Positions 5,793-62,362 of a stretch of 64,000 nt of DNA are shown one piece after another. Below the pieces are notes generated by a model. That model ran no database searches, was not told the origin of the DNA, and was given only the letters and a program-made list of their open reading frames with translations. The translations under genes and the position numbers were made by a program. Source of the DNA: Ianthella basta (Eukaryota; Porifera; Demospongiae; Verongiida; Ianthellidae); assembly GCA_964019415.1 (NCBI GenBank), contig OZ025883.1, forward strand, positions 4,005,586-4,069,585. The letters are read 5' to 3'. Within the stretch, counting starts at the first letter, position 1. Each line of letters begins with the position of its first letter.

Positions 5793-5948
5793 CTCTTGCT
5801 GAGCTACAGCAAGCTGGCCTCCTGACTAGTGACGAGTGCAAGGGTAACTTCATTCATGCGGTTAGTGGAAAGTCTCCTGCAGTGGTGTCCCAAGCCTGTG
5901 AGATTCTGACGAGACATGGATTTGAGACAGAGTCAAAATTCATTGCTG
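5793..5948 (+). CDS. Cassette exon 1 (short type), phase 1-1
   Basis: A 156-nt exon bounded by ctctttcacacag and G|GTAAGC. It starts two bases into a codon and ends one base into a codon, so it is symmetric. It encodes about 52 residues beginning LAELQQAGLLTSDECKG and ending EILTRHGFETESKFIA. The pattern L..L...GLLT..EC followed by a second amphipathic helix resembles helices 2-3 of CARD-like death-fold domains, but the family is not established. It is nearly identical to the exon at 57289. Probably one of several N-terminal modules of the GTPase gene at 27079. Reading through the donor continues about 24 codons to a stop. Confidence 0.75.
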
Positions 5949-6919
5949 GTAAGCAGATATTTTGTAAATTGTCTGTGTTTGGTTGTACTTACAATGGAGC
6001 CAAGTTATCAAGACCATTTTGACTTCACCTCACTTATCATGTAATGACTTCGTGTGTCAGTTGTGACATCATGAGCTCCACACTGTTGTGGCCACTTGTA
6101 TAGAGTGTCTGTCTGTCTGTTGCTGTATTAGTGTGTGTCTGTGTAGAATAGGTGATGTGGGTGTGTTGGTTGGTGAGTGCACTTAGGTGTATGGGTAGTT
6201 GTTGCTATGTACATGCATATCAGTATTTTCATGTGGCAGCAGCTCATGTTGATCTGGCAGCTGTCCAATCTATGGAGTACTACTTTTCTTATTGTTTGTG
6301 TTAATTACCATTCCATTGTCTGTACAACACTGTGTGCCCACTGTGACATACTGTACTGATCGGTTGTGTTAAGTGCACCCTCTATATAAATTTAAGCTAG
6401 AGCATATCCTATATTAAGCACCCAATTCCTTACCAGTTTTTCACCCTGATTGTTAGGTGTCTATTGATTTCAGGGCTTCATCCCTTCTTTGAGGTGTATA
6501 TAGGACTCCCTGGTAGAGTAGCAGTAATCATGAAGTGCAAACTAGTACAAACCTTTTTTGGTTGGTTGTCCACACTGGGCACCGGGTACCAGAGGCGAAA
6601 TCATGGTATTATACTTAAACATGAGCAGTATTGCTGTATACAATCTCTAGCTCGCAATCTATGTCTATAGTAGATTTTGCAATTATACTGTAAGTATGTG
6701 CATGAATTGGTATAATATCGTGCAAGCGCTTACAGGATACCAGTTTGCGGTATTGACAAGTGATTAAAAAGTTCTGTAACATAACACCAAATGGAAACTC
6801 TTTTACTGCACTAAGCGGCGGCCATCTTACTGTGACGTTTGCAAATCATTATAATTTGTTGATGCTTTCGACATGTTTGGTTAAGTGCATATCATTTATT
6901 ACTGTAAATGCATATTTCT

Positions 6920-7005
6920 ATCCTTCAGAGCTATAAGCACGTAATTAATATATATTATAATATAATATTATATAATATATATATATTATATAATAAATAT
7001 TTAAT
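6920..7005. repeat. AT-rich low-complexity tract
   Basis: Mixed TA and ATATT runs. The matching place in the duplicate near 58490 lacks the tract, so it expanded or was lost after duplication. Confidence 0.7.
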
Positions 7006-10000
7006 CCCACACCATTGTGTTAACACAAACGTATAAAGTATGTATATACAATCCATCTGCTACTGCATCAGTGTGTGTCTGGTATGAGTAGGTGTGTCAG
7101 TTAGTGGGTGTAGGTGTATGCTTATGCATTGCAATGTGTATCAGTATTTTCACATGGCAGCAGCAGAGTGATTGCTTAGCCAAGAATTGGCTTGCTGGCC
7201 ACAAATATTGGAAACTAACAGAGTGTGTTGAGTTGGGTGGCTGGCAGAATTGTGGAGCAATTTAATCTGTTAACTGTACTAGTGCTCTGCCTGTGGAGGT
7301 ACAATTCCCATTAGTTATATTACGAGATCATTGTAATGGTCTAAGGGAGACCTAGCTTGTCTTACAGTATTCTGCAGTGTGTATAATATGTACTTTGGTG
7401 TTTGTTGTGTAGCACAGTGATTGAAATTTATGCATTGCCAAAGCACAGGATAAACAGAGCAGATAATGGACATGGCCTTCACTTCTTCATAGCCATAAAC
7501 AGTGGGTAGTTGTTAATTGTTTTATTTAGATGAAATCAAATCTGTCATGGTTACTGGAAGATGGCTTTATCTATGTGTATTGCAAGGATCCATTGTAGCC
7601 TTTGTTGGGTGCAAAAATGGCATTTAGCAATAATTTACTTCAACTTTGTACTATCACAGATTAGCATTGTAATTGTTATATGTCACTGCACTGCACAGGC
7701 CTACTACGTATTATTGTCTCTGAGGAAGTAGACCACATATGGGTATGAGTCGGACACTGCTCCTTGAGCTACATGATCTAAGACTGAATAGAGGCACTGC
7801 TTGGTAGCGCTTACTGCACAATGGATTAGTCTTTCAATTGAAAGAATACACACGGTATATAATCCACAATGTCCAATGTTGTTGCATAGTTACCTTCCTC
7901 TGTGTCAGGCTATCCTGACTATGGTGAACGGATGTTCCCACATAACTCATAAACAGCAGTCTCATAATACTGGCATGTGGGTAGGTGTGACTGTGTTGGT
8001 GGTTGTGGCAGTGTGAGTTGGTGTGGTTGTATGGGTAGGAGTGACTGTGTAGAGATTGTGCAACCATAGTCTGAGATTATATACTTTTTGAACTAGTGCA
8101 TTGTTGCATTAATTTTGTGTGCATTGTCTGTTTGCATGCATGTATGAGTGTTTGTGTGCTTGTTCCTTTCTGTTAAAGTGTTATGTTGCCTAGTTGTATG
8201 CAGCCACTTTGAGACACTATCATTGGATAGAGACTACTTACATACCAACTGTGTCTGTTAGTTTCTTCAGTAATTTAATGCTTGAAGCTAATGTACAGTA
8301 ATACAGGTACTGACAGAAATGAAAGTTTTGACCAAATTGGCAATTCTTTGAGCTAACGTAAACGGCAACGACCATCATTTACAATGATTTCATCTGTTGA
8401 CCCATTTCTCAAAGTTAAAAATCTAATTTTGTTTACTTCATGTGGCAGAAGCTTGTGTCAGAGGCTGGTTGTCGAAATGGCACTGGGTGAACTGCGCCAT
8501 TCATCCGGCGACGTGTGGCGGAGCAAGTGCAGCATGCAGAAGGCCGTGCTTGCTCATATATATATTGCCTGCGTGAATATACACCTTTACCATTATATAT
8601 GAAATCAGTGTAAATGGACCTCGTCATATCCAGTAGTGTGTAATGATATAATGGTGTTCCATGAACCTCTCCACGCGCTGCCATTTAGTTGGCATAGTCT
8701 GAAGGGGATCTTGGTGTTCCTACCAAGTTTTAACAGCAAGCAGTAGGCGCCCACTTGGAGATCCACCATCACACACTTCTCTTTCACTGATCTTGTGCTA
8801 ATGTGATTTTGTCTTTCTCAGACCCTGCGGCTGCTTCACTTTCAATACTGGTAGGACCAGTATTTCTAACTTCAGCACTGTATTTGATACATACTTAAGG
8901 CCAATGTACTGCAGGTATTGGCAGAAATGTTGTAATTCTTGAACTAGCACAAAAGGTGGTGAACACCATGTAATGGATACTTCTGTTCACCGTCTCATTG
9001 CCAAAGTCCCCAGTGTCATTCTTCTGTTTGTCCATTTGAGATGAAATGTGTTGGAACTGGCTACTGAAGACAAGTATGCCAAAATGTCAAACTTGACCAT
9101 CTCATCAATTGTGTGAGGTTCTCTAGAATCCATCTAAGTAAAGTAACGAAGTGAAGGACTAAGGACGATTTGGTTATATTGACTATGTAGCCTACACTGT
9201 GATAGTTTGCATTGCACCTCTCCAATGCACTCACCTGCAGTAGCCCAGTTGGCTAGTCACACTGGTGAATGGGATCAACAGATTCTGCTGTATTATGAAT
9301 ATCATGTTGAAATGAATATTCAGACAGTTATGCGTGTGGTAGGATAGTCAGCTGATTGGTATGACTTTTGTAAGCAAATGCCAGAGCTACTTAACACCTG
9401 TGTTGAATGTGCTTCTTGTGTGTCCACTTGTCCTACAGTTAACTGTAGTTGCATGTTGTTGCTGCATCCTGTTCCAACTTTGGCTGGTTTCATGTCATAA
9501 CAATCGTGCACAAGTTGTAGTGAGATACAACAACCAACATTCACTTGCACAAGAGCACAACCTTTGACCTCTTGACCATGTGTCCAGCTGTGCACTGTAT
9601 GGTGCTACCTGAATTGGGTTGCTGCATCCCACTCCAACTTGTACCATGTTGGTCTACATCCACAAGCTCTTCATCTTGTGCTAGTGGTGTTCTTCTTAAC
9701 TAATACATACTCTACTTTCACCCGTGGTGGTCCTTTTCTACTGTACTTTAACTGGTGTCAGTTACTGCTACATATCCCTGCTTCCTTTCACAGGCACTGA
9801 TGTTCAGTACCAAGATAGGTGTACATAGTACATACATAGATTGTGTTCTGATGTTGTGTATAACTGGAAAACCCATTCATATATATGCAAGACAATACCC
9901 ACCCCACATTCCCCATTCCATTCCTGTCATTCATGGTGTTGCAAGTCCCATTGTATAATTCTCGGTCTTGTGTTGCTAATGTGGGATTGTCCTCCTTGTT

Positions 10001-10022
10001 CCTCCTCTCTTCTCTCCCCCAG

Positions 10023-10193
10023 TTCTTGCTGAGTTACAACAGGGTAATCTCATCACAAGTGACGAGTGTCAGGGACTGTCTACTGTCTGGGAGGTGCGTA
10101 ATGTACTACGAGTCAAAACTCCTACCATCAAGTCCAGAAGTGCTGAGATTCTGCTGAAGCATGGATATCAGAAACAATCAGAATTCCTTTCAG
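10023..10193 (+). CDS. Cassette exon 2 (171 nt), phase 1-1
   Basis: Bounded by tctctcccccag and TCAG|GTAAAG. Encodes 56 residues, from LAELQQGNLITSDECQG to LLKHGYQKQSEFLS. The phases match the other cassettes, so it can be joined to exon 1 or 3 without a shift. Compared with the short type it has five more residues in the middle (VWEVRNVLRVKTPT region). It lies 656 bp before its near-identical neighbour at 10850. Confidence 0.75.
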
Positions 10194-10849
10194 GTAAAGA
10201 CCTGTACAGTATTCTTCAGCTGTTTTCCTGTGTTGGTTAATGCAGTGGACCTACATACATACGTAGTTGTCTAGTCCACTTCCAGACATCGCCCCACACT
10301 CATCATTTCATGTCATAACAATCGTGTCCACAAGTTGTAGTGAGATACAACAACCAACTGTCACTTGCACAAGAGCACAACCTTTGACCTCTTGACCATG
10401 TGTCCAGCTGTGCACTGTATGGTGCTACCTGAATTGGGTTGCTGCATCCCACTCCAACTTGTACCATGTTGGTCTACTTCCACAAGCTCTTCATCTTGTG
10501 CTAGTGGTGTTCTTCTACCATTAACTAACACATGCTCCACTTTCACCTGTGGTGGTCCTTTCCTTCTGTACTACAACTGGTGGCAGTTACTGCTACATAT
10601 CCCTGCTTCCTTTCACAGGCACTGATGTGCAGTACCTAGATAGGTGTACATAGTACATACATAGATTGTGTTCTGATGTTGTGTATAACTGGAAAACTCA
10701 CTCATAAATGTGCAAGACAATACCCACCCCACATTCCCCATTCCATTCCTGTCAATCATGGTATTGCAAGTCCCATTGTATAATTCTCTGTCTTTTGTGT
10801 TGCTAATGTGTGATTGTCCTCCTTGTTCCTCCTCTCTTCTCTCCTCCAG

Positions 10850-11020
10850 TTCTTGCTGCGTTACAACAGGGTCATCTCATCACAAGTGACGAGTGTGAGG
10901 GACTGTATAGTGTCGGTCAGGTGCGTGATGTTCTTCGTGTCAAAACTCCTACCATCAAGTCCAGAAGTGCTGAGATTCTGCTGAAGCATGGATATCAGGA
11001 AGAATCTGCATTCCTTTCAG
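10850..11020 (+). CDS. Cassette exon 3 (171 nt), phase 1-1
   Basis: Bounded by tctctcctccag and TTTCAG|GTAACC. Encodes LAALQQGHLITSDECEG through LLKHGYQEESAFLS. It differs from exon 2 at a handful of residues, mostly in the segment between the two conserved helices (LYSVGQVRDVL against LSTVWEVRNVL). The frame is intact, so recent duplication has not broken it. Confidence 0.75.
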
Positions 11021-11541
11021 GTAACCAGCTGTACAGTATTCCTCAGCTGTTCTCCTGTGTTGGTTAATGCAGTGGACCTACATACATACGTAGTTGTCTA
11101 GTCCACTTCCAGACATCACCCCACACTCATCATGTATGGAGCCGCTGTGTGTTCACAGTCACATCTCAGTCCCCACACTGTCGTTATTTTCCTCACAGAT
11201 TATTGATTGTTCAGTGTCTCTCTGCATTGAATGCTGTAGTAATGCACGTATCTTTTGTTGTGTATGTACCTGTCTATTTTCTTTCCTTATTTTCTGTGTG
11301 CCTTGAATAGTAGCCCAATGGGCTAACGGCCTCATCGGTTTAAATAGGTAAGATTACCTGATACTTGAGCAAACTCTTGGCACTTCTTAACCTAAATCTA
11401 TTTAGAAGCAGGTGCAAGTGGCTCGCCCCCTCTCCAAAACTGGCCACGCATACATCAGTCTTGTACATGCATTCTCAATGACGGTACATAGCTGTCCTGG
11501 CATTCTCTGTATGTTTGAATGCACAATACTAAATGTGTGCT

Positions 11542-11542
<1 letters not shown>
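11021..11542. other. Intron sequence, no gene seen
   Basis: Sequence after cassette 3. The first 150 bp are repeated after cassette 7 near 52175-52340. Nothing else is recognised. Confidence 0.4.

Positions 11543-11628
<86 letters not shown>
11543..11628. repeat. (TG)n microsatellite
   Basis: About 42 TG units. All open frames across it are artefacts. Confidence 0.98.
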
Positions 11629-11631
<3 letters not shown>

Positions 11632-11649
11632 CGTGTATGCGTGTGTGTA

Positions 11650-12189
11650 TGTATGTGTGTGGCTGCATGTGTACATACATATGTGTTTACAACCACCTCT
11701 GTATGTCATGCACAAATATCCCCTTGTACCACCAACCAGCCCAGACACATGCTATTCCCATACCTGCTACACCATGCAGTCACGTATCACAGCATGCTTC
11801 CATGCATTTGCTCCTCACTCCTGCACAGGGTATGTGCTCTATGGCCACTCTATTTTTGTGTCTTTACTGTGGCACCTGCTGCATGTAGATATACGTATGT
11901 ACAGTATGTTCCTAATCTAGTGTGGTAGTTGTATGATTGTGTACATCCTAGTTGTGTTGCACAGTGTGCTGCTGTGTTGAGTTGTTGGGGTTACCTTGAA
12001 AGTGTAATTCTGACAAGCTGGGGCTTCAACTCTGGCCATAGCCATCTGGGTCATGGATATTCAGCTCTCTCTGTGCAATGCACCGGGGCTCTGTATAGGC
12101 CACCCAGGCAGTCCTCATCTGTGCAGCGGCTGGGCAGCCCTTACATTCCAAGTTCAAGAATATGCGCTTACAGTTATCGGTGCCCCTAG
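11650..12189. other. Intron sequence, no gene seen
   Basis: No repeat partner or coding stretch is recognised. Confidence 0.4.
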
Positions 12190-12793
12190 CTATGGCAACA
12201 GGGCACTGCACCTTTGTGTATATTTATTGGCACTTGCTATGACTTGTCTCTTGGTCAGTGTTCAACTGTTTTGTAATTGTCATTTGAGCCTAGTTGTCAC
12301 AACCACTCTGAGACATCTATATCATTAAATGGTCTTTGGATGTGGGATCCTTCCAGGTAGAGCAGGTCCAACTGTATGATATTACTTCTAAGAGCACGTG
12401 TATTGTGTGCTGTATTGTACTATGTTGTCTAAGTGCTCTGTTGTGTAAGTGTGAACATACAGTACATACATATTAAAGTGTCAGGATTATATAATACATA
12501 TATAGCACTACGATACCTGTCTTGCTAGACCCTCTCAATCTATCCCTTATACAGGTTCAGTGTCCTAGTTGTCCAGTCACCTGTGTTTCCTCCCCTGTCT
12601 GTGTGTGTGATGTAGTGTGTGTCCTATCTCATCGTCTGTTTGTTTACCCTTTGCGTATTAGCCTCTCATCAATCATGTATGAACAAGCCTCACTCCTGAT
12701 GTGCATGTGTACACTTGCATGAGGTAACTGTATTGTCGGTCTTTTGTTGTAATGTGTGATTGTCCTCCCTGTCATTCTCTCCTCTCCCCACAG

Positions 12794-12964
12794 TTCTTGT
12801 TGAGCTACAACAAGCTGACCTGATTTCCAGTGAAGATTGTAAGAGGATAGGTGTCATCAGTGATGTGCTTTTTTATCAGAGTGGCGAGTCTCCTGAAGTA
12901 TTGATCGGAACAACAGACATTCTAAAAAGGCATGGGCTTTCTAAGGAATCTAGTCTCCTTTCAG
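12794..12964 (+). CDS. Cassette exon 4 (171 nt), phase 1-1
   Basis: Bounded by ctctccccacag and TCAG|GTAAAC. Encodes LVELQQADLISSEDCKRI through ILKRHGLSKESSLLS, including a serine- and proline-bearing segment (QSGESPEV). It belongs to the same sub-type as exon 5. If the donor is read through, a stop follows at once (GKQ, Met, stop). Confidence 0.75.
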
Positions 12965-13481
12965 GTAAACAGATGTAGCCCCTCATCTATATTTTTTGCT
13001 ATGTTGTACGTATGTGGATCCTATATAGTTGTAACAGCCATTTTAGTGACATTGGAATGCACATCAGACATAGGTGATTCAGCTGCTTTTAAGATGCATA
13101 ACAATCCACACCTACACACTGGTTTTGAAACTCAAAGACATTGTCCATCTCATGTGTAAATTCACTACCTGTTGACAAGGTGTACATGGTGCTGTAGCAG
13201 TAATTGACCTTGAATTCTTGTGCTACTACATCAAGGTAGTTTGACACAAACAATGTTTCACACTTATCCATTATTCATTTGTCTTGTGACTTGGTCTGTT
13301 GCTAGATTGCAGTGTAACTGCAGTATGCAGAATCAGTGTGAAAGGGAATCTTAAGCATACTTGCAGCAGGTGTCCCAATGGAAGGGACTGTGTATGACTT
13401 GATGACTGATAATTGAACATGTCTAATCAAGACACAACTAGGCCATTACTGTCCGTAGACCTTTGAAATGGCTGGAAGGAT

Positions 13482-13558
13482 GGTGGTGCCACCAGGAATG
13501 GATCCCAGAACTCTCTATCTTAAGCTACCAGTGCTCTATCCCATGAGCTACTAGAGAG
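13482..13558 (-). ncRNA. tRNA-like sequence, degenerate (SINE head or tRNA pseudogene)
   Basis: On the minus strand TAGCTCATGGGATAGAGC gives a good A-box and D-arm. A lysine-like loop GCTTAAG and a damaged T-arm (GGGATCCATTCC) follow, ending in GGTGGCACCA. The anticodon stem pairs poorly and the invariant T before the anticodon is missing, so it is not a working tRNA. It sits in the left duplicate only, as judged by eye. Confidence 0.35.
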
Positions 13559-14328
13559 TGAATGTGGCTATTATTACTGTGCATTGGAAAGGGGCCATAA
13601 CTTTCAATCTTCGTATCCAAACAGGATGAGTTATTCTGACTATCTGAGTGACAGTGCCTTTCATTCCCATTGAAGAGTATCAGTGACTGTGAGGTACTTT
13701 GTAATTGAAATAGACCAACAAAGCTGATCCCCAACTGGGCACAGTTGTCCCATAACCATGGGTGTAGAGAGGGGGGTAGGTTTGCCTGTGTCACGTGTGT
13801 TTGTAAGTCGTTGTGCATCTTCTTAAGTAGCTGTCTCAAATATGGCAACTACATAAAGTAACTCCTAACGATGTCTGTTGTGTACATTTTCTGGGTCATG
13901 GTGAGTGAGTACAGAACCACCCATACTGCTACTTGGTGTGAAGCCCATGTTTCCATACAGTTCCACCCACTGAACCATTGCCAAAGACTTTCTACATCAC
14001 TCATGAAATATGCCAGCTTGATCAGCACTTCCCCCTAATAACGATGCATCACTTGTATTATAATTAAGTTTAGAGTTATTTGCTATGGTTATGTGTGTGT
14101 CTGAATAGAGGCCTGGACTTCTATTTCTTTCCAAGGAGTTCTGACCCAGCCATCCATTCTGTGTAGAGAATTCTCTCATGCAAGTCTTCAAGCCAGTCCA
14201 GCCTTGTGCATCATTTGCCAGTGGTACATTACAATGGTCTCTGTCTTTTATGCTCTAACTGGTAAACTAACCCAATTGGGTTGTCTAATTATCAAGGAGT
14301 AGTCATTTTAGCCATTATATTAAGTAAG

Positions 14329-15058
14329 TATTCGCTCTATTAGACAACGCGGCTACTATTTATTTCGCTAGGCAATTTGATGTGGCGTCTATTGGAGAGC
14401 GGCTACTAATAGAGAGCGGCGTTTATTAAACTCAATGGGCATCCGTCGGTGACTCGGTCGGTGAAGTCTTTTGTGAAGTAGGGGCTTTGAGAAAGGCCCT
14501 ACCTCAGCCGGTCCCAAGACTTACACAGAGGCTGGGAATGTGCGTGCTCCCAGCAAAGCGTTGTGCCTCCAGTGGGTGAAGGAGTGCTGGGAGGCGCTTC
14601 CAACAGAGACCGTAAAGAAGTCCTTCCTCGCGTGTGGGATTTCCGTGCACACAGACGGCACGGAAGACGGAGAAATCCACTGTCTTAAGGAAGGCGGAGT
14701 GGCTGTAAACGCCAGAAAGACAATTGAAAGAGACACTGCCGCGCTTGCCACTGCAACAGATTCGCTCGAGGAATCAGACCCCTTCGCCGATGTTGAAGAG
14801 GACGAAGAAGAGTTGGAGAACTAACTTGTTCTAGAAGACCGCTAATTCATTATACTATGCTTTCTACAATCCTTAAAATGTAGCTACTGTTAACCTTTTG
14901 CTTGTATTACTATCTCTGCTATTGCCGTCGAGCGATCCCACGGTTGTCTACTCGAATACTAGCCGCGGCTACTATTTCTTTCAGCACATCCGAAGGTACG
15001 GCTACTATTAGAGAGCGGCGACTAATAGAGAGCGGCGTTTAATAGAGCAAATACGGTA
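14329..15058 (+). mobile_element. Pogo-type DNA transposon fragment inserted at TA
   Basis: The ends are inverted repeats: tattcgctctattagac on the left, and tatttgctctattaaac on the complement of the right. Further aatagagagcggcg repeats lie inside each end. The empty site is preserved in the right duplicate near 20118-20135, where taagt is followed directly by tggtggtctacgg, so the insertion happened after the duplication. The element holds only the 3' end of a transposase (14519-14824) and cannot move on its own. Confidence 0.85.
14519..14824 (+). pseudogene. C-terminal transposase remnant (pogo/Tigger/Jerky type)
   Basis: The frame reads ...LQWVKECWEALPTETVKKSF then LACGISVHTDGTEDGEIHC and ends in an acidic tail (DVEEDEEELEN). 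The sequence W..W..lp...v..sF..cGis...dGtED is the typical C-terminal end of DDE_1 (pogo/Jerky) transposases, just after the catalytic core. The catalytic D, D, D/E region, the DNA-binding domain and any start codon are missing. The first Met-like start in this frame is a GTG. It is a passenger of the element at 14329-15058. Confidence 0.7.
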
Positions 15059-15779
15059 GGTGGTCTACGATTACCTCTCAGGCTCTATTGAGTTGAGAAT
15101 AGGAGTGTTAAAATGGACAATGATTTCAGAGCGAATATTGTGAGATGTAGCTCTGTATAGAAGAAATGGACTTAAATTCTCAGATGTGGTTTCTAGCCAT
15201 CTCCAAGGTATTCAGTGATTCTCTGAGCAGGACAACACTCCATCTCACAAACTTGAAGACTTGTTACATTTCTGGAATGTTGGAGTATATAGCCATAAGT
15301 CATGGCTTCTTCTGTGAAGGTCCTCTAGTGTCAGCTTGCTCAGAAAATGTAGATACTACGACATGACGCGTGACAATTCAAACTGACATTTATACTATCA
15401 TTCTAAACAAATGTGTATTTGAATTCCTCTTCTGCATTTCATTCAGTTGTACATCCCACTGTTAGTCCCTTTGCCAAGTGCCAAATGAATGTTGACAGAC
15501 TAGAAATAAATTTATAAGGTTATCTGCACAGCATGTCTTAAAGGCATTACTTCTACCCTGTGTGAGACTCTACTCATTCCACTTCTATATCCATTTTTCT
15601 ATTTATGCGTTCCCTACCTACCTTGCTGTGCCATGATCCTTTGATCACTACACATGATGGTTAAACATGCAAGGGAAACCTGATCACAGTCAGTTTGTGG
15701 GTAGTGGTATTTTGTTGAGTCGCCCAACTGTACAGCAGTGATATGAATTCTTTCCACATTGATGTGGCTGATGGAAATA

Positions 15780-15962
15780 CAGTGGAACCCCGCCTTGCAA
15801 ACACCCCTGAAGAGCGGACACCTCGATTATGCGGACACTTTCTAAAGTCCCAATGATTGACCCTATTCTACCTATATAAGCTTCCCTCGGAAATGCAGAC
15901 ACCCCTATAATCAGGACACTTTTCTTGTTCCGAAGGTTGTCCACATTATAGGGGCTCCACTG
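15780..15962. mobile_element. MITE with CAGTGGA.CCCC termini, TA target
   Basis: 183 bp with ends CAGTGGAACCCC and GGGGCTCCACTG flanked by TA on both sides (15778-15779 and 15963-15964). These termini are typical of non-autonomous Tigger/pogo elements. The right duplicate near 21557-21575 reads ctgatggcaaaaagtggactct and lacks the insert. Confidence 0.85.
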
Positions 15963-17302
15963 TAGTTGACTCTGCAGGAAGTTGCACATTAGTTCCTAAC
16001 CACTGAAACATTGTGATGAGTTCATTTAAAATGTTAGGTCTCTATAGGCGTTCCTGTTCAGCAGACCTAAATATTACCAGGATGTTGATGGTGTAGTTGA
16101 TTACATGCATGCTGCAGGCCCTGTAGCAAGGTGTCAGCTGTAAGGTAGCAAGTGCTGACATGACGTGAGGCTAACTTGTGATGGATCTGTGTAACCCATG
16201 GCCACAATGAGTATTGAGTAGTGAGAGCATTGTTGGGACCATGCATGCACTCTTCAAAAGCTTCCGTGTACAGTAGCTGAGAGATCATGCTGGTAAATTG
16301 TTTCTCCTCTAGTGAGGCAGAACGTGAGGGCTTTTGGCTGCAGCAACAGACAGAGGCCTAGTCATCATCAATCTGTCATCTAGGAATGATTCATTTTTTC
16401 TTAATAGTCCCTGAGATGTACTTCACCACCACTCTTTGGAATAGCAGCACTGGAGGAGCCTAGTCTGTGTTGGAAGCTCACTCTCAACTCTTCTAGCCAG
16501 TCTAGTTTTGTAGCCTCTGGTGCCCAAGCCTTTCTATTGGAGGAAAAGGACTGGCATGTACTGTATGTGATAGCTCAGCAGTGTGGTTACTAATCACCCA
16601 GTGAGCATGTGTAGCTTCACATGTGGATTTTGTGATGTGCAATCTCATTGGTTGACGCAAATTGCTATGTGACATCATAATCTGTAACCTGATTGGGTTG
16701 CACTGTGGGCTACAACTGACACAACTCGATGCATTGCAATGTGCCAGTCTTATTTGGCCCATATGATAACTATAAGGCTGGTGTGCATCAGTGAAGCCAC
16801 CACATGATTCCTTTCTCACTAATAGTGCACTGATCTAGCTAGGTTGAAGTCACATCCAATGCACTGTAGAGCTCGAGCCTGACCAGGCTATAATGAGGCC
16901 ATTGTTACTGTGTTTTGGTAGGAGACTGTCTGTGCAAAGCTCCATACTCTAACATGCTAGCCATTTGAATTGCAGTATATTTACCAGAAGTCCAAAGATT
17001 TAGGCTTGGAGTTAATATCCATAGCCCCAGCAGTGGCAGCACTGCCAGCACTGCACCTTTACATATACTTATTGGCACTTGCTGTGACTTGTCTCTTGGT
17101 CAGTGTACGACTGTTGATAATTATCCTTTGAGCCTAGTTATCATGACTCCTCTGAGACATCTATTAGTAATAATTGGTATTTGGATGTAGGAGCCTTTAT
17201 GTTTGTATGCTTTAGTGTGTAGATATGTGTGTTACTAATCTTGTCTGGTGGTAGAATAATTATGGATTATAATTCTTCTGTACGTAGTTTGTGTGTTATA
17301 TT

Positions 17303-18020
17303 TAAAGTTGCACCGATAATCGGATCGGCAATCGGTATCGGCCGATATTGGGTCTCTGTAACCTTATCGGTAATCGGCTTTTTTCCTTCGTCCCCTACCG
17401 ATTATATCACCTCGAGCACGTGACGTCTGCGAGTAAAGTGTTATGCGAGTGGTTACGTTGTTGCAGCGTTTGCCGTTGGTTTGTTCTGGGTCTGCAGCGC
17501 ATGGAATCGCCAGGAAGAAAGATTCACCAGCATGGGACTACTTCGCTGTCGATGAGGACCTCAACTTCGTAGCGTACCAGGCCTGCAACAAGAAGGAATC
17601 CGCGCGGCGGTAGGAATTGCACGAGTTATATTTATGGAATTATACGAATTTGGTGCAAGCACGCTCAACTGCACAGAGAGTTGCAACAAAAGGTTGAGGT
17701 ACAGAATGCAGCGACCTTATCAAGTAGTCCAGCGCCTTTCTGGCAAATATCGCTTCGAGCCTGAAAGTGAAGATCGCATATGAATCTGTAGGCTAAGGTG
17801 TATTAGTGATGCGCGCACACAGCGTATTCACGGGAGAACTGCTGAGACGATTGCACTCGATTGTCAGCCATTCTTTGTGACTGAGTACCAGGGCTTCAGG
17901 CAGTAGATCAAAGAAACCAAAGTACACATTGTGCAGCAAAAATCGAAATATCGGATCGGTATCGGCACTTAAAAATCGGAAATCTGATAATCGGTAAAAA
18001 ACTATATCGGTGCAACTCTA
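17303..18020 (+). mobile_element. hAT DNA transposon fragment with 8-bp target duplication
   Basis: The ends are TAAAGTTGCACCGATA and TATCGGTGCAACTCTA, inverted copies with one or two differences. They are flanked by a perfect 8-bp duplication GTTATATT at 17295-17302 and 18021-18028. Eight-base target duplication is the hAT hallmark. The sequence near 17520-17610 encodes a piece of BED-type zinc finger (SPAWDYFAVDEDLNF then CNKKES), as expected at the N terminus of a hAT transposase. The catalytic domain is absent, so it is non-autonomous. Confidence 0.92.
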
Positions 18021-18410
18021 GTTATATTATATTGTGTTGTATGTGTGTTGTGTTGTTCTATGTTGTGTGGTGTTCTAGATCTGTTGTGTGAATGCGAACA
18101 TATGTGTCTAAGTGATAATACACAACTACTGTGTTACCTGTCCTGCTAGACCCTCTCATGCACTCTATTGAATAGCCATTACAAGTTCACTGTCCTAGTA
18201 GTAATGTCATGTCTGTTTCCTCCTTGTCTGTGTGTGTGCGATGTAGTGTGTCCCTCCTCATCTGTCACTTCTTACTTGCCCCTCAGGAGCCATCTATGAG
18301 CATGCTTCGCTCCTGAGGAGCTGTGTACCCTTGTGTGGGGTAACTGTAATCTTTATCTTGTGTTGTAATATGTGACTGTCCCCCCTGTCATTTTCTCTCT
18401 TCACCCACAG

Positions 18411-18581
18411 TTCTTGCTGAGCTACAGCAAGCCAACCTGATTTCCAGACAAGATTGTAGAAGGGTGAAGGACATCAGTCGTGTGCTTGAAGTTCAGAGAG
18501 GCAAGTCTCCTCAGGTACAGAGCAAAACTGCTGATATTCTGAGGAGTCAGGGATGGGACAAGGAGGCTGGTCTCCTTTCAG
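18411..18581 (+). CDS. Cassette exon 5 (171 nt), phase 1-1
   Basis: Bounded by tcttcacccacag and TTTCAG|GTAAAC. Encodes LAELQQANLISRQDCRRV through ILRSQGWDKEAGLLS, with KSPQV in the centre. It is the duplicate of exon 4 but strongly diverged in the middle, while the splice sites and the LxELQQAxLIS start are kept. It is the last intact cassette before the GTPase exon, about 8.5 kb downstream. Confidence 0.75.
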
Positions 18582-20164
18582 GTAAACAGACTTAGCCCTC
18601 ATCCATCTTTCTTTTGTTACATTACGTTGTACGTATCCTAGTTGTAACAGCCATGCACTTTAAAGGCATTGGAATGCACTTTATATAAAAGTGATTCAGC
18701 TGCTAATTGGATGCACATCGATCCACACTTTCACACTTGTTTTAATTTTCATAGACAGTGACCCATTGTGTGAATCATTCTACATGTTGAGAAGGTGTAC
18801 ATGATGCTGTACCTATAGTAGTAATTGAATTTGGATCCTTGAACAACTATGCCCACCTTGTTTCACACGAATGACTATCTTGGTTTCAGCTCATTTGCCT
18901 TCCATTGTTAACTTGTCTTCTCATTGGCCGTGTTTCTTATTTGACAACTTGGTGCTAATTACTCACAAGGCAGGTTTGTATATGTGAAGGCAACTAATGA
19001 TTGCTTTCACACTGGTGTAAACATGCTTAAAAATAATGGTCTGGATTTATGTCTAGTGTGAACATGCTGTAATGAGTTACTTGTTGTGAAGCGCTTGTTT
19101 ACATGTGGTGCCACCTCCTGAATGGCTTGGTCTTTGTTTCATAATTCACAAAATGTGCCCACTCCATCTGGACTTACAGATGCACAGTTTGTATGTTGGT
19201 GTTGCAGTCGACTTAAAGAGTTTATTAGTGTATATGTGTATTTGTCTGAATAGAACCCAGCCTTTATTAAGAATTTTCATCCTCCTTTGTCTGGGACAGA
19301 CTTCTATTTAGGAACTGGTGCTAAAGTACCTGAACCCTAGCCATGTTTCTTACATATATACAGCATCTGTTGTTGATGCCACACATGGCTGCCCGTTGAA
19401 TGCTATGACCATTCTGTCACAGCCATGAAAGATGGCCTATTCCTCTTAGTCTTGGGTGCCGTGTCTGATTTTGATCTGCATTATGCTGTCCAGTGGCCAG
19501 TCCAGTGGCCATGGAATGGCCTGTGCTATGCATGTACCTGGCTGTTGCCACAGCATCGCAAACAATACCTAGAGGTGTAGAGGAAGGGGTACTTTGCAGG
19601 TGTCACGTGTGTTTGTAGGTCGTTGTGCATCTTCTCAGGTTGCTGTCTCAAATATGGCAACTACATATAGTAACTCCTAACGATGTATTTTGCGTACATT
19701 TTCTGGGTCATGGTGAGTGAGAATCAGAACCACCCGTACCGCTACTTGGTGTGAGTTCAGCACATGTTTCCATACAGTGCCACCCATGCACTGAACCATT
19801 GCCAAAGTCTTTCTACATCAGTCATGAAATGTGCCAGCTTGATCAGCACTTACCCTCATAACGATGCACCATTTGTATTGTAATTATGATTAGGGACTGG
19901 GGTTTCTATTTCTTTCTGAGGAGTTTAATTTGACCCAACCGTCCATTCTGTGTAGGTACTTCTCTCTCATGCAAGTCTTCTAGCCAGTCCAGCCTCATGC
20001 ATCATCTGCCAGTGGTACATTAAAATGGCCGCTGTCTATTTTGCTCGAACTACTTAATATACTAACCCAATTGTGTTGTTTAATTGTCAAGGAGTAATCA
20101 TTTAGCCATTCCATTAGGTAAGTTGGTGGTCTACGGTTACCTCTCAGGTTATATTGAGCAACAG
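18582..20164. other. Non-coding part of the right duplicate
   Basis: Collinear with about 12965-14328 and 15058-15090. No additional exon is recognised. Confidence 0.5.
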
Positions 20165-20885
20165 GTAAACCTACTTCTACTGAACCTTGTACAAATATGA
20201 AAATGCCAGCAGCAAGTGATTGCACTGCACTACGTTCCTGTCCATTTAATTACTTATTGTGCCATGTTACTTTGTGTGGAGTCCGTTCCAATTACATAAG
20301 AGTAGCCTTCCATCGTGAAAACATATAATACGCTGTCTGACAGAGAGTAATAGATGATTATTCTATTACCAATCTTCACTAGCCAAATCAATGGAATAAT
20401 CTGCCAAAGGTTTCAACAATCATGCCATGTCTTCATCAGTGGCTATAGTACAAAACAGAAGGTGATTCGCTTTTATAGGCTACAATGTGGGGAAAGGTGG
20501 TGATGCAAAATGTGAGTGACTGCAAAATGGCAGATGGTGAGTAAGCTGTTATGACAGATGAAAGGAACAGATGACAGGTGAAGAGTAAATCTAAAAGGGT
20601 ATTTGGACATAAATGAGTGAGGCATGCAAGTAAAGCCAAGTTGTATAACAATGAAATAATGAATTGTAAAGTGGGGTAATGTGCCATCATTTCTGTTCAA
20701 AGTGTGAGACTGTGATCTAATGTGAATTGATTCTAAAGTGAGCATCTGGTGTCAACGGGAGTATTAGATGGACTGGGATTCCCTTACGTATGTACCTTTG
20801 GGCAGTTCATGCCACATTACTATTACTATTCCTTGAAATATGGCTTCTGCTGTGTCATACCATCTATGCGTGTTTCAGTAAGAAT
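20165..20885 (-). mobile_element. Insertion with Penelope-like motif
   Basis: This segment is missing at the matching place in the left duplicate, near 15095-15112. Its minus strand carries GCCACTGATGAAGACATGGC followed by TTGAAACCTTTGGC and GGCTAGTGAAG (20365-20445). This is the same arrangement as the hammerhead-like motif at 3119, though here stem II is badly paired. Upstream on that strand is a TATAAAAGCG. Open frames at 20436-20745 show no recognised domain. Confidence 0.5.
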
Positions 20886-27078: not shown

Positions 27079-29219
27079 CACCTCTGAAACCACCATCATG
27101 GCTACCTGACTATGAAGAGGCAGTGGCTAAGCAGGGATCCGTAGACGTCACTATCAATCGTAACATTATCATGGGCCCCTCTGCTGTAGGCAAATCCTGC
27201 TTGAAGCACTTATTGGTGCACAACAAGCCCAAAGAAGTCAAGGTCAGCACACCTGTCATGGCAAAGCCAGAAGTTGTCTCCATTTCGGCAGAGAAGTACG
27301 CAGTTGAAGGAACCTCAGTCTGGCTGCCACTTTCTGATGAGAAGATGGCCTGCTCTATCAGGTCATCCTGCCTCAGCCGCCAGTACCACGTCACTGAAAC
27401 AAAACCAAAGGCTCCTCCAGAAGACCGCCATGTCAAGCCTTTGCAACCAGTGAAGAAAAGCGATCCACCAGCTGTTACCAGTAAACTTCCCTCTCGCACT
27501 TCTTGTGAAGAAGTCAGTCCTGCAGCAGGAAATTCACTCTTTCCTACACCTTCTGCTCTTCCTACCACCCAATCCATGTTTCACAAAGCACACTCAAGCC
27601 TCATGCGTGATCTCGGTGCAGGTCTACAGGAAGAATTGCAACTGAATGGCGCCAGGTTTGTCCACTTGCTTGACACCGGTGGTCAACCAAGCTTTCAAGA
27701 TGTCCTTCCCCTGTTGTTGGACATCCCATGCACTTACGTGCACGTCTTCAATGCAGCCATGGACCTCGATCAGCCAGTACCTATCACATACCGACCAAAT
27801 GCATCCACAGAGGTGGAAATATTGGCCAGTTCTGAGACAGTTTGGGGAATGACACTGCGATCCCTTTCCAGTGTCCAGACCTTGGCATACAAGGTATCCA
27901 GCAATGCGGGTGCATTACCAATGAATATCCAATTTCCAACGTTCCGCACAGTTCTAGTCGGCACGTTCAAAGATCAGTTAGTGAAGAAGGGCATTGCCAC
28001 TAAAGCAGCTACTAAGATTTCCAAGCAAATTGAGCTGCTTGAAAATAAGCCATATTATTCCCACATAGTCCCCAATTCCAATGGGGAGCTGTTCTTCCTT
28101 GTGAACAATATGCAGCACGTTGAAGCCTCACAGCGCACTCAAGAAGATCAGGATAGCATCGATGATCTCCGTGTAGTCCTTTCCCATTCCGATGGTGCCC
28201 TGAAAACCAAGATACCCATAGGATGGTTTCACTTTGAAATGGTGGCCCGTAAGGTTTCTCAGAAGTTCTTCCCATTTGCTGAGCTATTGGAGCATGCCCG
28301 TGAGTTGAAGTGTATAAGCTCAGCCAACCCAAGTCGCGAATTCCGTAGCCTTCTGCAGCTGTTTCACTCCCTTGGGGTCTTCACTTTTGTTGATCACACT
28401 GATGTCCCCGATACAGTCTGCACAGACAACAGTGTGTTCCTACAGGAAGTGTCAAAGCTCCTTGCAATACAGTTCATTGAGATTCCTAAGTGCCCGGCAG
28501 CCAAGAAGTTTAAGAAGAGAGGTATCCTTACCTTGGATGAAGGGCTTTTCAATGAGCTGGGCATCCTTAAGGAGGTGGACCAAAAGTGGCTACTACGCTG
28601 CCTGTGCTACCTTGGTGTAACAGCCGATTTATCTCCGCCTGGTGCTACTACTGCCAATTATTTTATGCCGGCAGCACTTTCGTCAGCAGGCTCACCAGAG
28701 TCAGCATCTGGCAGTGTGGCTCCATTGCTGGTGGCATTTTCATTTGAAGAGAATGCCTTTGAAACTACCCAAGATCTTCCACGAGGCATCTTCACTCGCC
28801 TAGCAGTGGAACTAACCAACAAGAAGGATTGGAAGGTGATTCCGGAGAAGAGCACTCGTTTAGCCATACAGTTTCGAAGGAAGGAACTGCACATATCCAT
28901 TGGTGAATGTCCCGGATACATCAGTATCACCCTCAGGGTCTCCATTCACACGAGATGCAGTGCAGCTATGCTGCATGAATACTGTGGCCAAGTTCGATCC
29001 ACATTCGAAGAAGCGATTCGAGCGTCTACCCAATCAGTATTTGGTTCCAAATTCACTAATAAGGCAGCTACCGTTTACGGCTTCACATGCCCCTGTGAGG
29101 CCCGCCCTACCCATTTGGCTGTCCAAAGTGGCGACAGCATTGTCTGCAATATTTCATCTGAGGACCAAAAATACTTGAAAAGCCACCAAGTATGGTTCTG
29201 CAAAGTTGAAGGAGCAGAG
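27079..29219 (+). CDS. Roc/COR-like GTPase exon
   Basis: A 2141-nt internal exon, acceptor attcattacag and donor GCAGAG|GTGAGT, entering in phase 1 and leaving in phase 0. It encodes 713 complete codons starting PLKPPSWLPDYEEAV. The P-loop GPSAVGKS is at residues 32-39. DTGGQ, the Walker B/switch II region of Roc-type GTPases, is at 198-202. The base-recognition motif appears as GTFKD at 294-298, where relatives have GTHxD. A basic, proline-rich insertion of about 130 residues separates the P-loop from DTGGQ. Residues of about 375-520 resemble the winged-helix COR region. The C-terminal 180 residues carry a Cys pair (FTCPCEA). The first in-frame ATG (27171) lies directly before the P-loop and would remove its strand, so translation must start in an upstream exon. 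Phase 1 entry matches the cassette exons. Sponges and cnidarians have many GTPases of this kind, often joined to death-fold domains. Confidence 0.9.
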
Positions 29220-29470: not shown

Positions 29471-29534
29471 CTCCAGCCACACCCCTCTGATCCAAATATA
29501 TTCCACTTAGTGGACAGCACTTCACAAGGAGAAG
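29471..29534 (+). CDS. Small exon after the GTPase (phase 0-1)
   Basis: A 64-nt exon with acceptor tcaccttctag and donor GAAG|GTGGGC. It reads LQPHPSDPNIFHLVDSTSQGE with no stop, entering in phase 0 as required by the GTPase donor and leaving in phase 1 as required by the next exon. It probably closes the C-terminal domain of the GTPase module. Confidence 0.7.
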
Positions 29535-30755: not shown

Positions 30756-30842
30756 TTTCAGAGAGGCATAGCAGCTCCTCTCCTATCAGTGGCCCTCGAC
30801 AAATCAGTGCTCAGGTTGAGAAAGTTGGAGCTAGCTCAACTG
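30756..30842 (+). CDS. Ser/Pro-rich linker exon 1, phase 1-1
   Basis: 87 nt between tctacttgcag and ACTG|GTAAGG. It encodes a low-complexity linker (SERHSSSSPISGPRQ then ISAQVEKVGASST) joining the GTPase part to the first CARD-like exon. It is shorter, but similar, in the second unit at 31717. Confidence 0.7.
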
Positions 30843-31148: not shown

Positions 31149-31445
31149 CCACACCATTTTCAGTATCAGAGTTACTAAACAAACACGAGATGGAGTTTTT
31201 TGAAGTTGTGAACCCCAAGTTTAGCTTGCTGAGTCTAGAGCGTGAAGAAGTTATCACACAAGATGTGGCATCACGTATCTCTGCTGTGAATGATGATGAC
31301 GCAAAAGAGATCTTGTTTGCTCACTTGACGCGTTATGCCAATGTAAACTCTCTGGTGAAATATTGTGATGTTATCATTGGTGGAAATGGTTTCCCAAACA
31401 TGCAGTCATTTGGAGCCAAGATCAAAGTAGAACTACAACAAGGAG
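31149..31445 (+). CDS. CARD-like domain exon A, phase 1-1
   Basis: 297 nt between cactatgcag and AAGGAG|GTTTGT. Encodes about 98 residues from FSVSELLNKHEMEFFEVV to FGAKIKVELQQG. The spacing of leucines and the segment LEREEVITQDVASRIS, where helix 2 is followed by a turn and helix 3, look like a CARD or other death-fold domain, as does the length. The assignment is by pattern only. It is followed by a (TG)n tract, as is its duplicate. Its likely role is homotypic assembly with other death-fold proteins. Confidence 0.78.
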
Positions 31446-31716: not shown

Positions 31717-31764
31717 GGGCTCCAAGCAACCCCAGTCTTCCCAGTGGTACCCAAATCTCAACTG
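31717..31764 (+). CDS. Linker exon 2, phase 1-1
   Basis: 48 nt between catggttgtag and ACTG|GTAAGG. Encodes GAPSNPSLPSGTQIST. Its end (ISTG) and its donor match linker exon 1, in line with duplication of a linker-CARD unit. Confidence 0.65.
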
Positions 31765-32001: not shown

Positions 32002-32301
32002 ACACACCAGTTTCAGTATCAGAGTTTCTGAAGAAACACGAGACAGAGTTTTTCACTGTAGTGAACCCAAGATTTAGCCTGATGAGACTACAACGTAAAG
32101 GAGTTATTTCGCAAGATGTAGTGTCACGTATCTCTGCTGCAACAAATGAAAAAGATGCTCAAGAGGTATTGTTTGCTCATGTGACACATTTTGCCAATGT
32201 GAACACTCTGAGGGAATATTGTGACGTTATCATTGGTGCGAAAGGTTTCCCAAACATGCAGTCATTTGGAGCTAAAATGAAAGAGGAGCTGCAACAAGGA
32301 G
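32002..32301 (+). CDS. CARD-like domain exon B, phase 1-1
   Basis: 300 nt between gtgcaatgcag and AAGGAG|GTAAAT. Encodes about 99 residues from VSVSEFLKKHETEFFTVV to FGAKMKEELQQG. By eye it is about two-thirds identical to exon A, with one extra residue (ATNEKDAQ against AVNDDDAK). The best conserved stretches are RISA, LFAH, YCDVIIG and GFPNMQSFGAK. The conserved C-terminal half suggests an interaction surface kept in both copies. Confidence 0.78.
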
Positions 32302-32633: not shown

Positions 32634-32650
32634 GGAAGCAGACTAGCTGA
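32634..32650 (+). CDS. Terminal coding exon (GKQTS, stop)
   Basis: The acceptor gccccacacag is followed by two bases completing a Gly codon, then AAG CAG ACT AGC TGA. The phase fits exon B, giving a protein that ends LQQGGKQTS. From the GTPase exon to this stop the spliced frame holds 984 residues. The exon is very short, so another terminal exon cannot be excluded. No AATAAA is seen just downstream. Confidence 0.55.
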
Positions 32651-39424: not shown

Positions 39425-39474
39425 AGCTGTAGAGTTTCTGCCAGAACCTGCTGTTGCAAATCCATGCACAGTCA

Positions 39475-52003: not shown

Positions 52004-52174
52004 TTCTTGCTGAGTTACAACAGGGTAATCTCATCACAAGTGACGAGTGTAAGCGACTGTCTGAAGTCTGGCAGGTGCACAATGTACTACGAGTCAAAAC
52101 TCCTACCACCAAGTCCAGAAGTGCTGAGATTCTGCTGAAGCATGGATATCAGGAAGTATCTGCATTACTTTCAG
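52004..52174 (+). CDS. Cassette exon 7 (171 nt), phase 1-1, second array
   Basis: Bounded by tctctcccccag and TTTCAG|GTAAAC. Encodes LAELQQGNLITSDECKRL through LLKHGYQEVSALLS. It is very close to exons 2 and 3 of the first array, with changes in the middle (SEVWQVHNVLRVKTPTTKS). It is on the same strand as the first array, but about 19 kb beyond the end of the first GTPase gene. Confidence 0.75.
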
Positions 52175-57288: not shown

Positions 57289-60200
57289 CTCTTGCTGAGC
57301 TACAACAAGCTGGCCTCCTCACTAGTGATGAGTGCAAGGGTTACATCATTCATGCGGTTAGTGGAAAGCCTCCTGCAGTGGTGTCCCAAGCCTGTGAGAT
57401 TATGATGAGACATGGCTTTGAGACACAGTCGAAACTCATTGCAGGTAAGCAGATGTTTTGTAAATTGTCTGTGTTTGGTTGTACATACAATGGAGGCAAG
57501 TTATCAATACCATGTTGACATCACCCCCATGCACTTATCGTGTAAAGACTTTGTGTGTCAGTTGTGACATCATGAGCTCCACACTATTGTGGCCACTTTT
57601 AGTGTCTGTCTGTTGTTGTATGAGTGTGTGTCTGTGTAGAATAGGTGATGTGGGTGTGTCGGTTGGTGAGTGCACTTAGGTGTATGGGTAGTTGTTGCTA
57701 TGTATGTATCAGTATTTTCATGTGGCAGCAGCTCATGTTGATCTTCAGGGGCTGCTTAGCCATGAACTGGCTTACTGGGCACAAAGCAATCTGACAGATG
57801 TCCAATCTACGGAGTACTACATTTCCTATTGCAATTGTTTGTGTTAATCACCATTCCATTGTCTGTGTCTGTGCCCGCTGTGACATACTGTACTGATCGG
57901 TTGTGTTAAGTGCACCCTCTATATAAGAGCATTTCCTTTACTGAGCACCCAATTCCTTACCAGTTTTTCACCCTGATTGTTAGGTGTCTAGTGATTTTGG
58001 GGATCTATCCCTTCTTTGAGGTGCATATAGGACTCCCTGGTAGACTAGCAGCTTGGCTGAAGTGTAATCATACAGTGCAAACTAGTACAAACCTTATCTG
58101 GTTGGTTGTCCACACTGGGCACCAGGTACCAGAGTCGAAATCATGGTATTATACATAAACATGAGCAGTATTGCTGTATACAATCTCTAGCTCACAATCT
58201 ATGTCAATACTAGATTTTACAATTATACTGTAAGTATGTGCATGAATTCGTATAATATCGTGCAAGCGCTTACAGGATACCAGTTAGCTATGTGGACAAG
58301 CGATTCAAAATAGTTTGTAACATAGCGCTAAATGGAAACTCGTTCACTGCACTAAGTGGTGGCCATCTTACAGTGACATTTGCATATCATTATAATTTGT
58401 TGATGCTATTAGCATGTTCGGTTAAGCGCATATCCTTTATTATTGTAGATGCATATTTCTATCCTGTCAGAGTTAGTAGCATATTATTATGTCTTACAAC
58501 AGATTAGTATGGTATTTAGTCCCATTACATTGTATTAACACATACGTATGAACTATTCGTATGAAGTATGTATATACGATCCATCTGCTACTGCATCAGT
58601 GTGTGTATGGTATGAGTAGGTGTGTCAGTTAGTGGGTGTAGGTGTATGCTTATGCGTTGCAATGTGTATCAGTATTTTCACGTGGCAGCAGCAGAGTGAA
58701 TGCTTAGCCAAGAATTGGCTTGCCGGCCACAAATATTGGAAACTAACAGAGTGTGTTGAGTAGGGTGGCTGGCAGAGCAATTTAATCTGTTAACTGTACT
58801 AGTGCTCTGCCTGTGGAGGTACATCTCCCGTTAGTTATACTACAAGAGCATTGTAATGGTCTAAGGGAGACCTAGCTTGTCTTACAGTATTCTGCAGTGT
58901 GTATAATATGTACGTTTGGTGTTTCTTGTGTAGCACAGTGATTGAAATTTATGCATTACTAAAGCACAGGATAGGAGAGCAGATAATGGATGTGGCCTTC
59001 ACTTCCTCATAACCAGAAACAGTGAGTAGGTGTTAAGTGTTTTATTTAGATGAAATCAAAGCTGTCATGGTTACTGGAAGATGGCTTTATCTGTGTGTAT
59101 CCATTGTAGCCTTTGTTTGGTGCAAAAATGGCATTTAGCAATAATTTACTTACTTTTTACTGTCACAGATTAGCATTGTAATTGTTATATGTCACTGCAC
59201 TGCACAGGCCTACTATCATTGTCTCTGAGGAAGTAGACAACATATGGGTATGAGTCCAACACTGCTACTTGTGCTACATGATCTAAGACTGAATAGAGGC
59301 ACTGCTTGGTAGCGCTTACTACACAATGGATGAGTCTTTCAATTATAAGAGTACACACGCTATATAATCCACAATGTCCAATGTTGTTGCGTAGTTACCT
59401 TTCTCTGTGTCAGGCTATCCTGACTATGGTGAACAGATGTGCCCACATAACTCATAAACAGCAGTCTCACAATACTGGCATGTGGGTAGGTGTGACTGTG
59501 TTGGTGGTTGTGGCAGTGTGATTTGGTGTGGTTGTGTGGGTAGGAGCGACTGTGTAGAGATTGCGCAACCATACTCTGAGATCATACACTTTTTGAACTA
59601 GTGCATTGTTGCATTAATTTTGTGTGCATTGTCTGTTTGCATGCATGTATGAGTGTTTGTGTGCTTGTTCCTTTCTGTTAAAGTGTTATGTTGCCTAGTT
59701 GTATGCAGCCACTTTGAGACACTATCATTGGATAGAGACTACTTACATACCAACTGTGTCTGTTAGTTACTTCTGTTTTTTAATGCTTGAAGCTAATGTA
59801 CAGTAATACAGGTACTGACAGAAATGAAAGTTTTGACCAAATTGGCAATTCTTTGAGCCAACGTAAATGGCAACGACCATCATTACAGTGATTTTATCTG
59901 TTGACCCATTTCTCAAAGTTAAAAATCTAATTTTGTTTACTTCATGTGGCAGCAGCTTGTGTCAGAGGCTGGTTGTCGAAATGGCACTGGGTGGACTGCG
60001 CCATTCATCCGGCGACGTGTGGCGGAGCAAGCGCAGCATGCAGAAGGCAGTGCTTGCTCATATATATATTGCCTGCATGAATATACACCTTTACCATTAT
60101 ATACTTGTGCCATGAAATCAGTGTAAATAGACCTCGTCATATCCAGTAGTGTGTAATGATATAATGGTGTTCTGGTTTAGTGCAGTGCTTGAATTAATGA

Positions 60201-62188: not shown

Positions 62189-62362
62189 TTCTTGCTGAGC
62201 TACAACAGGCTCACCTTCTCACTAATGAAGAATGCGACGATGTGTGGGACATTGATGATGTGGTTGCACTTCAACGCAATAAGCCTTCAGATGTTCAAGT
62301 TAAAACTGCTGAGGTTTTCTTCAAACATGGACTTAAGACAGAGGAGATGAAGGAATTTGCAG
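62189..62362 (+). CDS. Cassette exon 9 (174 nt), phase 1-1
   Basis: Bounded by tctctctcccag and GCAG|GTAAAT. Encodes LAELQQAHLLTNEECDDV through FFKHGLKTEEMKEFA. It is one codon longer than the usual type and the most diverged cassette (DIDDVVALQRNKPSDVQVK in the middle), which suggests an older member. It is the last cassette before the window ends. Confidence 0.72.

Follow-up and report, generated by a model that had tools for sequence, protein, structure and literature searches.

Tandem symmetric exons for a CARD-like module precede a putative Roco-type GTPase in the sponge Ianthella basta

In the sponge Ianthella basta, tandem exons coding for diverged copies of one small module are found upstream of, and in frame with, the exon of a large intracellular GTPase. 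The window analysed here is a 64,000 nt stretch of contig OZ025883.1 (hereafter C16; positions 4005586–4069585), and coordinates given without a contig refer to it, with negative values lying upstream of its start. An earlier note on this DNA had described five exons of 156 or 171 nt, all of symmetric phase 1-1 and feeding a GTPase exon. The positions, AG acceptors, GT donors and open frames of all five are borne out (Table 1), the frame continues into the GTPase exon at 27079 in matching phase, and the picture of a single diverged module family, whose symmetric exons connect in frame with this GTPase, is supported. From the GTPase exon (27079–29219), the reading frame is predicted to run through the exons at 29471, 30756, 31149, 31717 and 32002 and to end at a stop codon in a last exon at 32634. 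We give slightly better than even credence to the view that this is a germline-diversified, receptor-like family of Roco-type proteins, in which the array grows and is reshuffled by tandem exon duplication and most modules are spliced in. Tandem CARD-derived modules, one per phase 1-1 exon, would then lie N-terminal to a large cytosolic Roco-type GTPase, and most or all of them would be spliced into one mRNA, giving the protein a surface built of repeats. Contacts with variable partners may be made by residues exposed along helix 4 and at the end of helix 3, and binding may then be passed on to the GTPase and to the C-terminal domains. Duplication in the germline, unequal exchange and selection would be the sources of diversity, to which alternative inclusion might add. 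A role in recognition (immune or self/non-self) is likely, judging by the evolutionary pattern and the kinship to CARD.

The window gene is part of a much larger array. A contiguous 284 kb was read (20 kb ahead of the window, the window itself and 200 kb beyond it; N makes up 7.5 kb of the 264 kb counted), and 35 modules were found between -2999 and 260432, every one of them open, preceded by AG, followed by GT and in phase 1-1; six more partial, weak matches (E values 0.37–0.62) were left uncounted. Outside the window gene, exon sizes include 174 and 189 nt besides 156 and 171 nt. Three genes can be traced to a GTPase exon, with 6, at least 11 and 15 modules. The sixth module of the window gene lies at -2999, beyond the window and 8.8 kb upstream of 5793, and no further modules were detected in the remaining 17 kb of sequence scanned upstream of that gene. 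The modules of the second gene span 52004–101980 (GTPase match at 107511, with an N gap inside the gene), those of the third 149216–214462 (GTPase match at 220052), and a fourth gene begins with three further modules. By eye, 34 modules were grouped into seven types (A–G), the order of which varies between genes: B-A-B-B-C-D in the window gene, B-A-E-A-E-F-G-C-D-D-D in the second and B-A-E-B-E-A-E-E-A-chimera-F-G-C-D-D in the third.

Genome-wide searches covered the 209 Mb assembly of 96 contigs. With one module as the query, the best 150 of 271 candidates were scored, and all 150 were without a stop; they are found on C16, C52, C75, C6, C4, C20, C21 and C10. Two of these contigs, C52 and C75, are each 90,000 bases long, mirror one another by coordinates, and carry one more module array with a GTPase exon. 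Over its first 600 bases, the C52 GTPase exon has 5 differences from that of the fourth C16 gene and 11 from that of the third, while a module region near the other end of C52 differs from the third C16 gene at 22 of 3161 positions. Among the matches listed, four type D modules precede the GTPase on C52 and three in the fourth C16 gene. C52 could represent a second haplotype, a mosaic or a distinct copy. It is very improbable that the module exons are relics, that is, non-functional duplicates used in no transcript. The surrounding intron sequence is much duplicated and repeat-rich, and a degenerate module-like remnant with stops does occur at 34200–34400, downstream of the window gene (E value 0.37, ending ...KSADLLDRFGYKEEGTQLS), and recurs at 227195, after the third gene. 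However, the 35 modules are intact and the 150 scored genome matches are open, and about 7.6 stops would be expected without selection among the 182 changes in 16 module pairs, where none is seen (P ~5e-4).

The array grew by duplication of blocks and of single exons, introns included. Within the window, 9506–10267 and 10326–11094 match at 92–98%, and 12777–16860 matches 18394–22441 in blocks of 64–96% identity; since introns were duplicated along with exons, the array arose at least partly by tandem segmental duplication. The exon at 189044 appears by eye to be a chimera that begins as type B and ends as type E, and was omitted from all selection counts.

Profile comparisons relate the module to CARD. 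A profile of the modules matched one built from 20 CARD exons of the same genome at 94.3% (92.9% after adding modules) over 52 columns, as against 0.4–0.9% for 20 Death domains and 0.2% for the reversed profile. In 50 column shuffles the top score was 19.0, compared with 35.7 for the real module-CARD comparison. The match is co-linear with CARD columns of about 21–80, with one loop shorter by some seven residues, and about 20 N-terminal CARD columns are absent from the module, the exon of which begins at what we take to be the position of CARD helix 2. Given that the match is limited to these columns, helix 1 would be missing, and the module is better called CARD-derived than a full CARD. This assignment, to helices 2–6 without helix 1, is supported though not beyond doubt. 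Searches of Pfam, NCBIfam and PDB sequences with the module gave nothing at cut-off or significant, and no leucine-rich repeat (LRR) was matched among the modules scanned in Pfam. CARD and Death domains also occur elsewhere in the genome. At least 147 matches exceed the Pfam CARD cut-off (150 of 367 candidates scored; five with an internal stop), many of them close together on C3, C8, C4 and C18, and at least 85 Death-domain matches were found at an E value of 1e-5 (150 of 437 candidates scored). Some of the CARD hits span only profile positions of about 29–84 and were considered as possible copies of the module, but the six examined belong to another CARD-containing exon. A Death-domain exon at C6:563378–563593 is flanked by C6 modules, one at 553651 (9.6 kb before it) and one at 568873 (5.3 kb after it), and Death and CARD matches also occur near the C6 modules at 9.1–9.6 Mb.

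In the GTPase, two motifs, GPSAVGKS and DTGGQP, were read directly, and we take them to be the Roc-type P-loop and DxxGQ motifs. Pfam returned Ras (E value 0.013) and Roc (E value 0.16), both under cut-off. A genome search, in which 62 of the 349 candidates were scored, listed at least 66 matches to the GTPase, and four of these contain a stop. The 33 COR-A matches in the genome do not include the window GTPase, but four of them, all below cut-off, are downstream of other module arrays and on the same strand (C16:4515710, C20:2517523, C4:11785469 and C6:9591870; 20, 11, 9 and 37 kb, respectively, from the nearest listed module). In the two array-downstream open reading frames (ORFs) examined, COR-A was the best Pfam match, again below cut-off (E values 1.6e-5 and 5.9e-5), and the second half of the window GTPase aligns with one COR-A ORF at 25% identity over 209 columns (E value 4e-4 in a single comparison). 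Roco-type is the best label for this protein, although it is not proved. The GTPase exons of the three genes show a nonsynonymous-to-synonymous ratio (w) of 0.25–0.27, indicating purifying selection. Downstream of one C6 array there is a different ORF, along with a 5 kb stretch of N, and the arrays may therefore serve other proteins too. Beyond the GTPase, the domain of about 98 aa was tried as a CARD and as a relative of the module, and neither reading is supported (profile probabilities 2.95% and 0.5–1.4%, respectively). In the second gene, the linker exon is kept at 111152–111238, beyond the window, but no copy of the two domain exons of genes 1 and 3 was found there by a query that, although in the wrong frame, did find the other four copies.

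It had been proposed earlier that the two ends of the module are conserved and its centre variable, and this is seen in C16, where the best grid values of w were 0.6 for the N-terminal end, 1.6 for the centre and 0.8–1.0 for the C-terminal end; the central value departs from 1 by twice a log-likelihood difference (2dlnL) of about 5.5. Across 16 disjoint closest C16 pairs, dN/dS was 1.0, 2.0 and 1.0 for the same three parts. Site models M1a and M2a were compared for 34 modules of the C16 cluster and 20 of the C6 cluster, two clusters that are about 70% alike in DNA. M2a was favoured in both, with a 2dlnL of 39.5 in C16 (selected codons 16, 19, 20, 23, 26 and 53, of which alignment column 53 is present in type E only) and 37.6 in C6 (selected codons 5, 16, 20, 26, 29 and 51), and codons 16, 20 and 26 are common to the two. 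Null simulations were run for C16 only: the largest 2dlnL was 0.84 in four runs on one tree and 6.9 in five runs on two half-trees with one breakpoint, where one run exceeded 5.99. Positive selection at a few central codons is likely but not certain. Codons 16, 19/20, 23, 26 and 29 are spaced as they might be on a single helix face, their placement on helices being our assumption from the CARD alignment and known CARD structures.

Several findings weigh against the reading of a selected receptor family. Over the whole module, w is 1.01 and 1.06 in the two clusters, and part of the pattern may therefore reflect relaxed constraint. Nonsynonymous divergence in the C16 centre (codons 16–40) is greater than that of the flanking introns for just 9 of the 16 pairs (p 0.14), the pooled values being 9.9% and 6.1%; in C6 (codons 16–30) this holds for 5 of 10 pairs (p 0.19), and pooled dN/dS there is 0.81 for the centre, as against 0.67 for the rest. 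Recombination, which can inflate site tests, is clearly in evidence; moreover, modules swap sequence with their neighbours, so that an exon and its intron may differ in history. Pfam CARD (PF00619) matched none of the 14 + 13 modules scanned, and when only 34 modules from outside C16 were used, the CARD score was 74.9%. Searches of Pfam, NCBIfam and PDB sequences with the GTPase likewise gave nothing at cut-off or significant, and no convincing candidate emerged when the DNA ahead of the first module was searched for a conserved first coding exon. The interpretation in the earlier note is supported to the extent that the site models in two clusters point to diversifying selection on central codons, although the paired exon/intron tests are not significant. 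These whole-module, paired and C6 values, as well as the chimeric exon and the long segmental duplicates, would also suit a neutral structural repeat protein, in which unequal crossing-over acts on weakly constrained centres and recombination or gene conversion creates the site-model signal as an artefact. We consider this unlikely, in view of the three codons that recur in two such diverged clusters, the contrast between centre and N-terminal end in the C16 grid, and the one-breakpoint simulations, which peaked far below the observed value, albeit in only five runs.

How many of the modules enter a given transcript bears on a further alternative. Acceptors of the 35 modules have a mean pyrimidine content of 0.93 from -20 to -4 (minimum 0.82), 33 of the 35 donors are CAG|GT, and the introns are about 0.65–11.8 kb in length and all GT-AG. 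The module types recognisably share the last 45 nt or so of the upstream intron, consisting of a branch-point-like sequence and the pyrimidine tract. In a scan of 600 nt flanks, with one module for each of the seven types, no 8-mer was common to five or more types once the final 60 nt of the upstream intron were set aside; 8-mers common to four types numbered 5 upstream and 2 downstream, as compared with 0.1 in shuffles. The antisense of a shared 20 nt element reached at best 14/20 in the third gene, equal to all five shuffles. No docking or selector element was found by this simple k-mer and antisense scan, which a degenerate or structured element could escape. Strong, uniform splice sites and the absence of any sign of such a device in that scan favour routine inclusion, although cell-specific skipping may occur. 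A Dscam-like or combinatorial array, in which each transcript would take one or a subset of the module exons and thereby give many GTPase isoforms, is in our estimation rather unlikely. All exons are symmetric and any could be skipped without a frame change, but phase 1-1 symmetry is the usual form of shuffled animal domain exons; the splice signals and the negative scan also argue against such an array, and introns of these lengths and types make steric exclusion unlikely. A precedent in its favour is the alternative splicing of tandem LRR exons in brown algal ROCO genes (PMC11378527). A variable-first-exon model of the protocadherin type was ruled out, as an acceptor is present on every module exon.

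Among known systems, arthropod Dscam is a membrane immunoglobulin protein encoded by mutually exclusive exons, for which RNA docking/selector pairs are present. Its cassette clusters resemble the present array in being tandem, homologous and symmetric exons that could be chosen alternatively, but differ in that a simple scan found no docking or selector element here, and the Dscam analogy is unproven. Fungal HET-D and HET-E carry WD40 repeats on a STAND NTPase, a cytosolic NTP-binding switch. In these HNWD proteins, repeats are exchanged within and between members, repeat number is variable, and a few codons per repeat, located at the interaction surface, are positively selected (PMC1805685). 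Repeat exchange and positive selection at few codons are shared with the sponge array, whereas HET-D and HET-E have a known self/non-self role and the sponge modules are CARD-like and on separate exons.

The brown algal LRR-ROCO genes are a closer parallel: their LRR exons are 72 bp in length and of phase 2, they are shuffled, four codons are positively selected, alternative transcripts occur, and the proteins are proposed to be immune receptors (PMC11378527). Both systems have one module per single-phase exon ahead of a GTPase, which in the algae is of ROC-COR type, as well as shuffling and signs of positive selection under M1/M2 models at a few module codons; in contrast to the algal genes, those described here have CARD-like exons of 156–189 nt in phase 1-1, come from an animal, and are known from DNA alone. 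The earlier view that a splice array feeding an intracellular GTPase would be new is too strong in light of this precedent (PMC11378527). Sponge NLRs, described for Dysidea avara with a NACHT plus LRR architecture, are likewise large CARD/Death-rich intracellular receptor families of an early animal, although the abstract of that description mentions no comparable module array (PMC12909245). Among the papers listed on sponge CARD and NACHT proteins, ROCO immunity, exon shuffling and CARD arrays, no such animal system is described, within a coverage that takes in few subscription papers and preprints. If the favoured reading of a germline-diversified family is true, animals and brown algae would have separately reached one design, in which single-exon modules stand in a row on a Roco-type switch and undergo reshuffling and positive selection; and a signalling domain of the death fold, which is normally conserved and serves as a homotypic adaptor, could be trimmed to a variable recognition unit. 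The most far-reaching version seems decidedly unlikely. In it, an early animal would owe an intracellular repertoire to splicing, which would join different sets of hypervariable CARD-derived modules to a Roco-type switch; one gene with 6 to 15 symmetric exons could then yield many recognition proteins, in a Dscam-like manner and by an origin independent of the brown algal system.

Table 1. Exons of the window gene and module exons of the next gene in the window.
Feature	Position	Strand	Remarks
Module exon type A, 156 nt, phase 1-1	5793..5948	+	AG/GT, open frame
Module exon type B, 171 nt, phase 1-1	10023..10193	+	AG/GT, open; exon and introns duplicated at 10850
Module exon type B, 171 nt, phase 1-1	10850..11020	+	Tandem copy of 10023; AG/GT, open
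Module exon type C, 171 nt, phase 1-1	12794..12964	+	AG/GT, open; at head of 5.6–5.8 kb segmental duplicate
Module exon type D, 171 nt, phase 1-1	18411..18581	+	AG/GT, open frame
GTPase exon, 2.1 kb, phase 1-0	27079..29219	+	ORF of 742 aa; P-loop GPSAVGKS, DTGGQP; Roc-COR-like
Small exon, phase 0-1, resets phase after GTPase exon	29471..29534	+	Read from sequence; predicted
Linker exon, 87 nt, phase 1-1	30756..30842	+	Predicted
Domain exon (~98 aa), copy 1, phase 1-1	31149..31445	+	No Pfam match at cut-off
Linker exon, 48 nt, phase 1-1	31717..31764	+	Predicted
Domain exon (~99 aa), copy 2	32002..32301	+	Pfam CARD only at E 0.15–0.2
Terminal coding exon with stop	32634..32650	+	Predicted
Module exon type B, next gene (first of at least 11 modules)	52004..52174	+	AG/GT, open frame
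Module exon type A, next gene	57289..57444	+	AG/GT, open frame; 87% aa identity to 5793 copy
Module exon type E, 174 nt, next gene	62189..62362	+	AG/GT, open frame

Other features of the window lie within and around the gene. A leucine-rich-looking ORF at 20742–21176 was considered as a hidden exon and ruled out by stops in several of its homologous copies. The intron before the GTPase exon contains reverse-transcriptase-like ORF fragments at 22591–24028 (minus strand) and at about 25100–26000, with a YADD motif recognised by eye, and a minisatellite with a 21 bp unit at 24461–24838. Between the first and second module genes are three long ORFs (39433–40368, 43183–44031 and 44364–44969) that match no Pfam family at cut-off, and a copy of the DNA at 45.3–48.4 kb, matching at 87%, lies upstream of the first gene. 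Near the start of the window, at 638–811, there is an array with an 8 bp unit.

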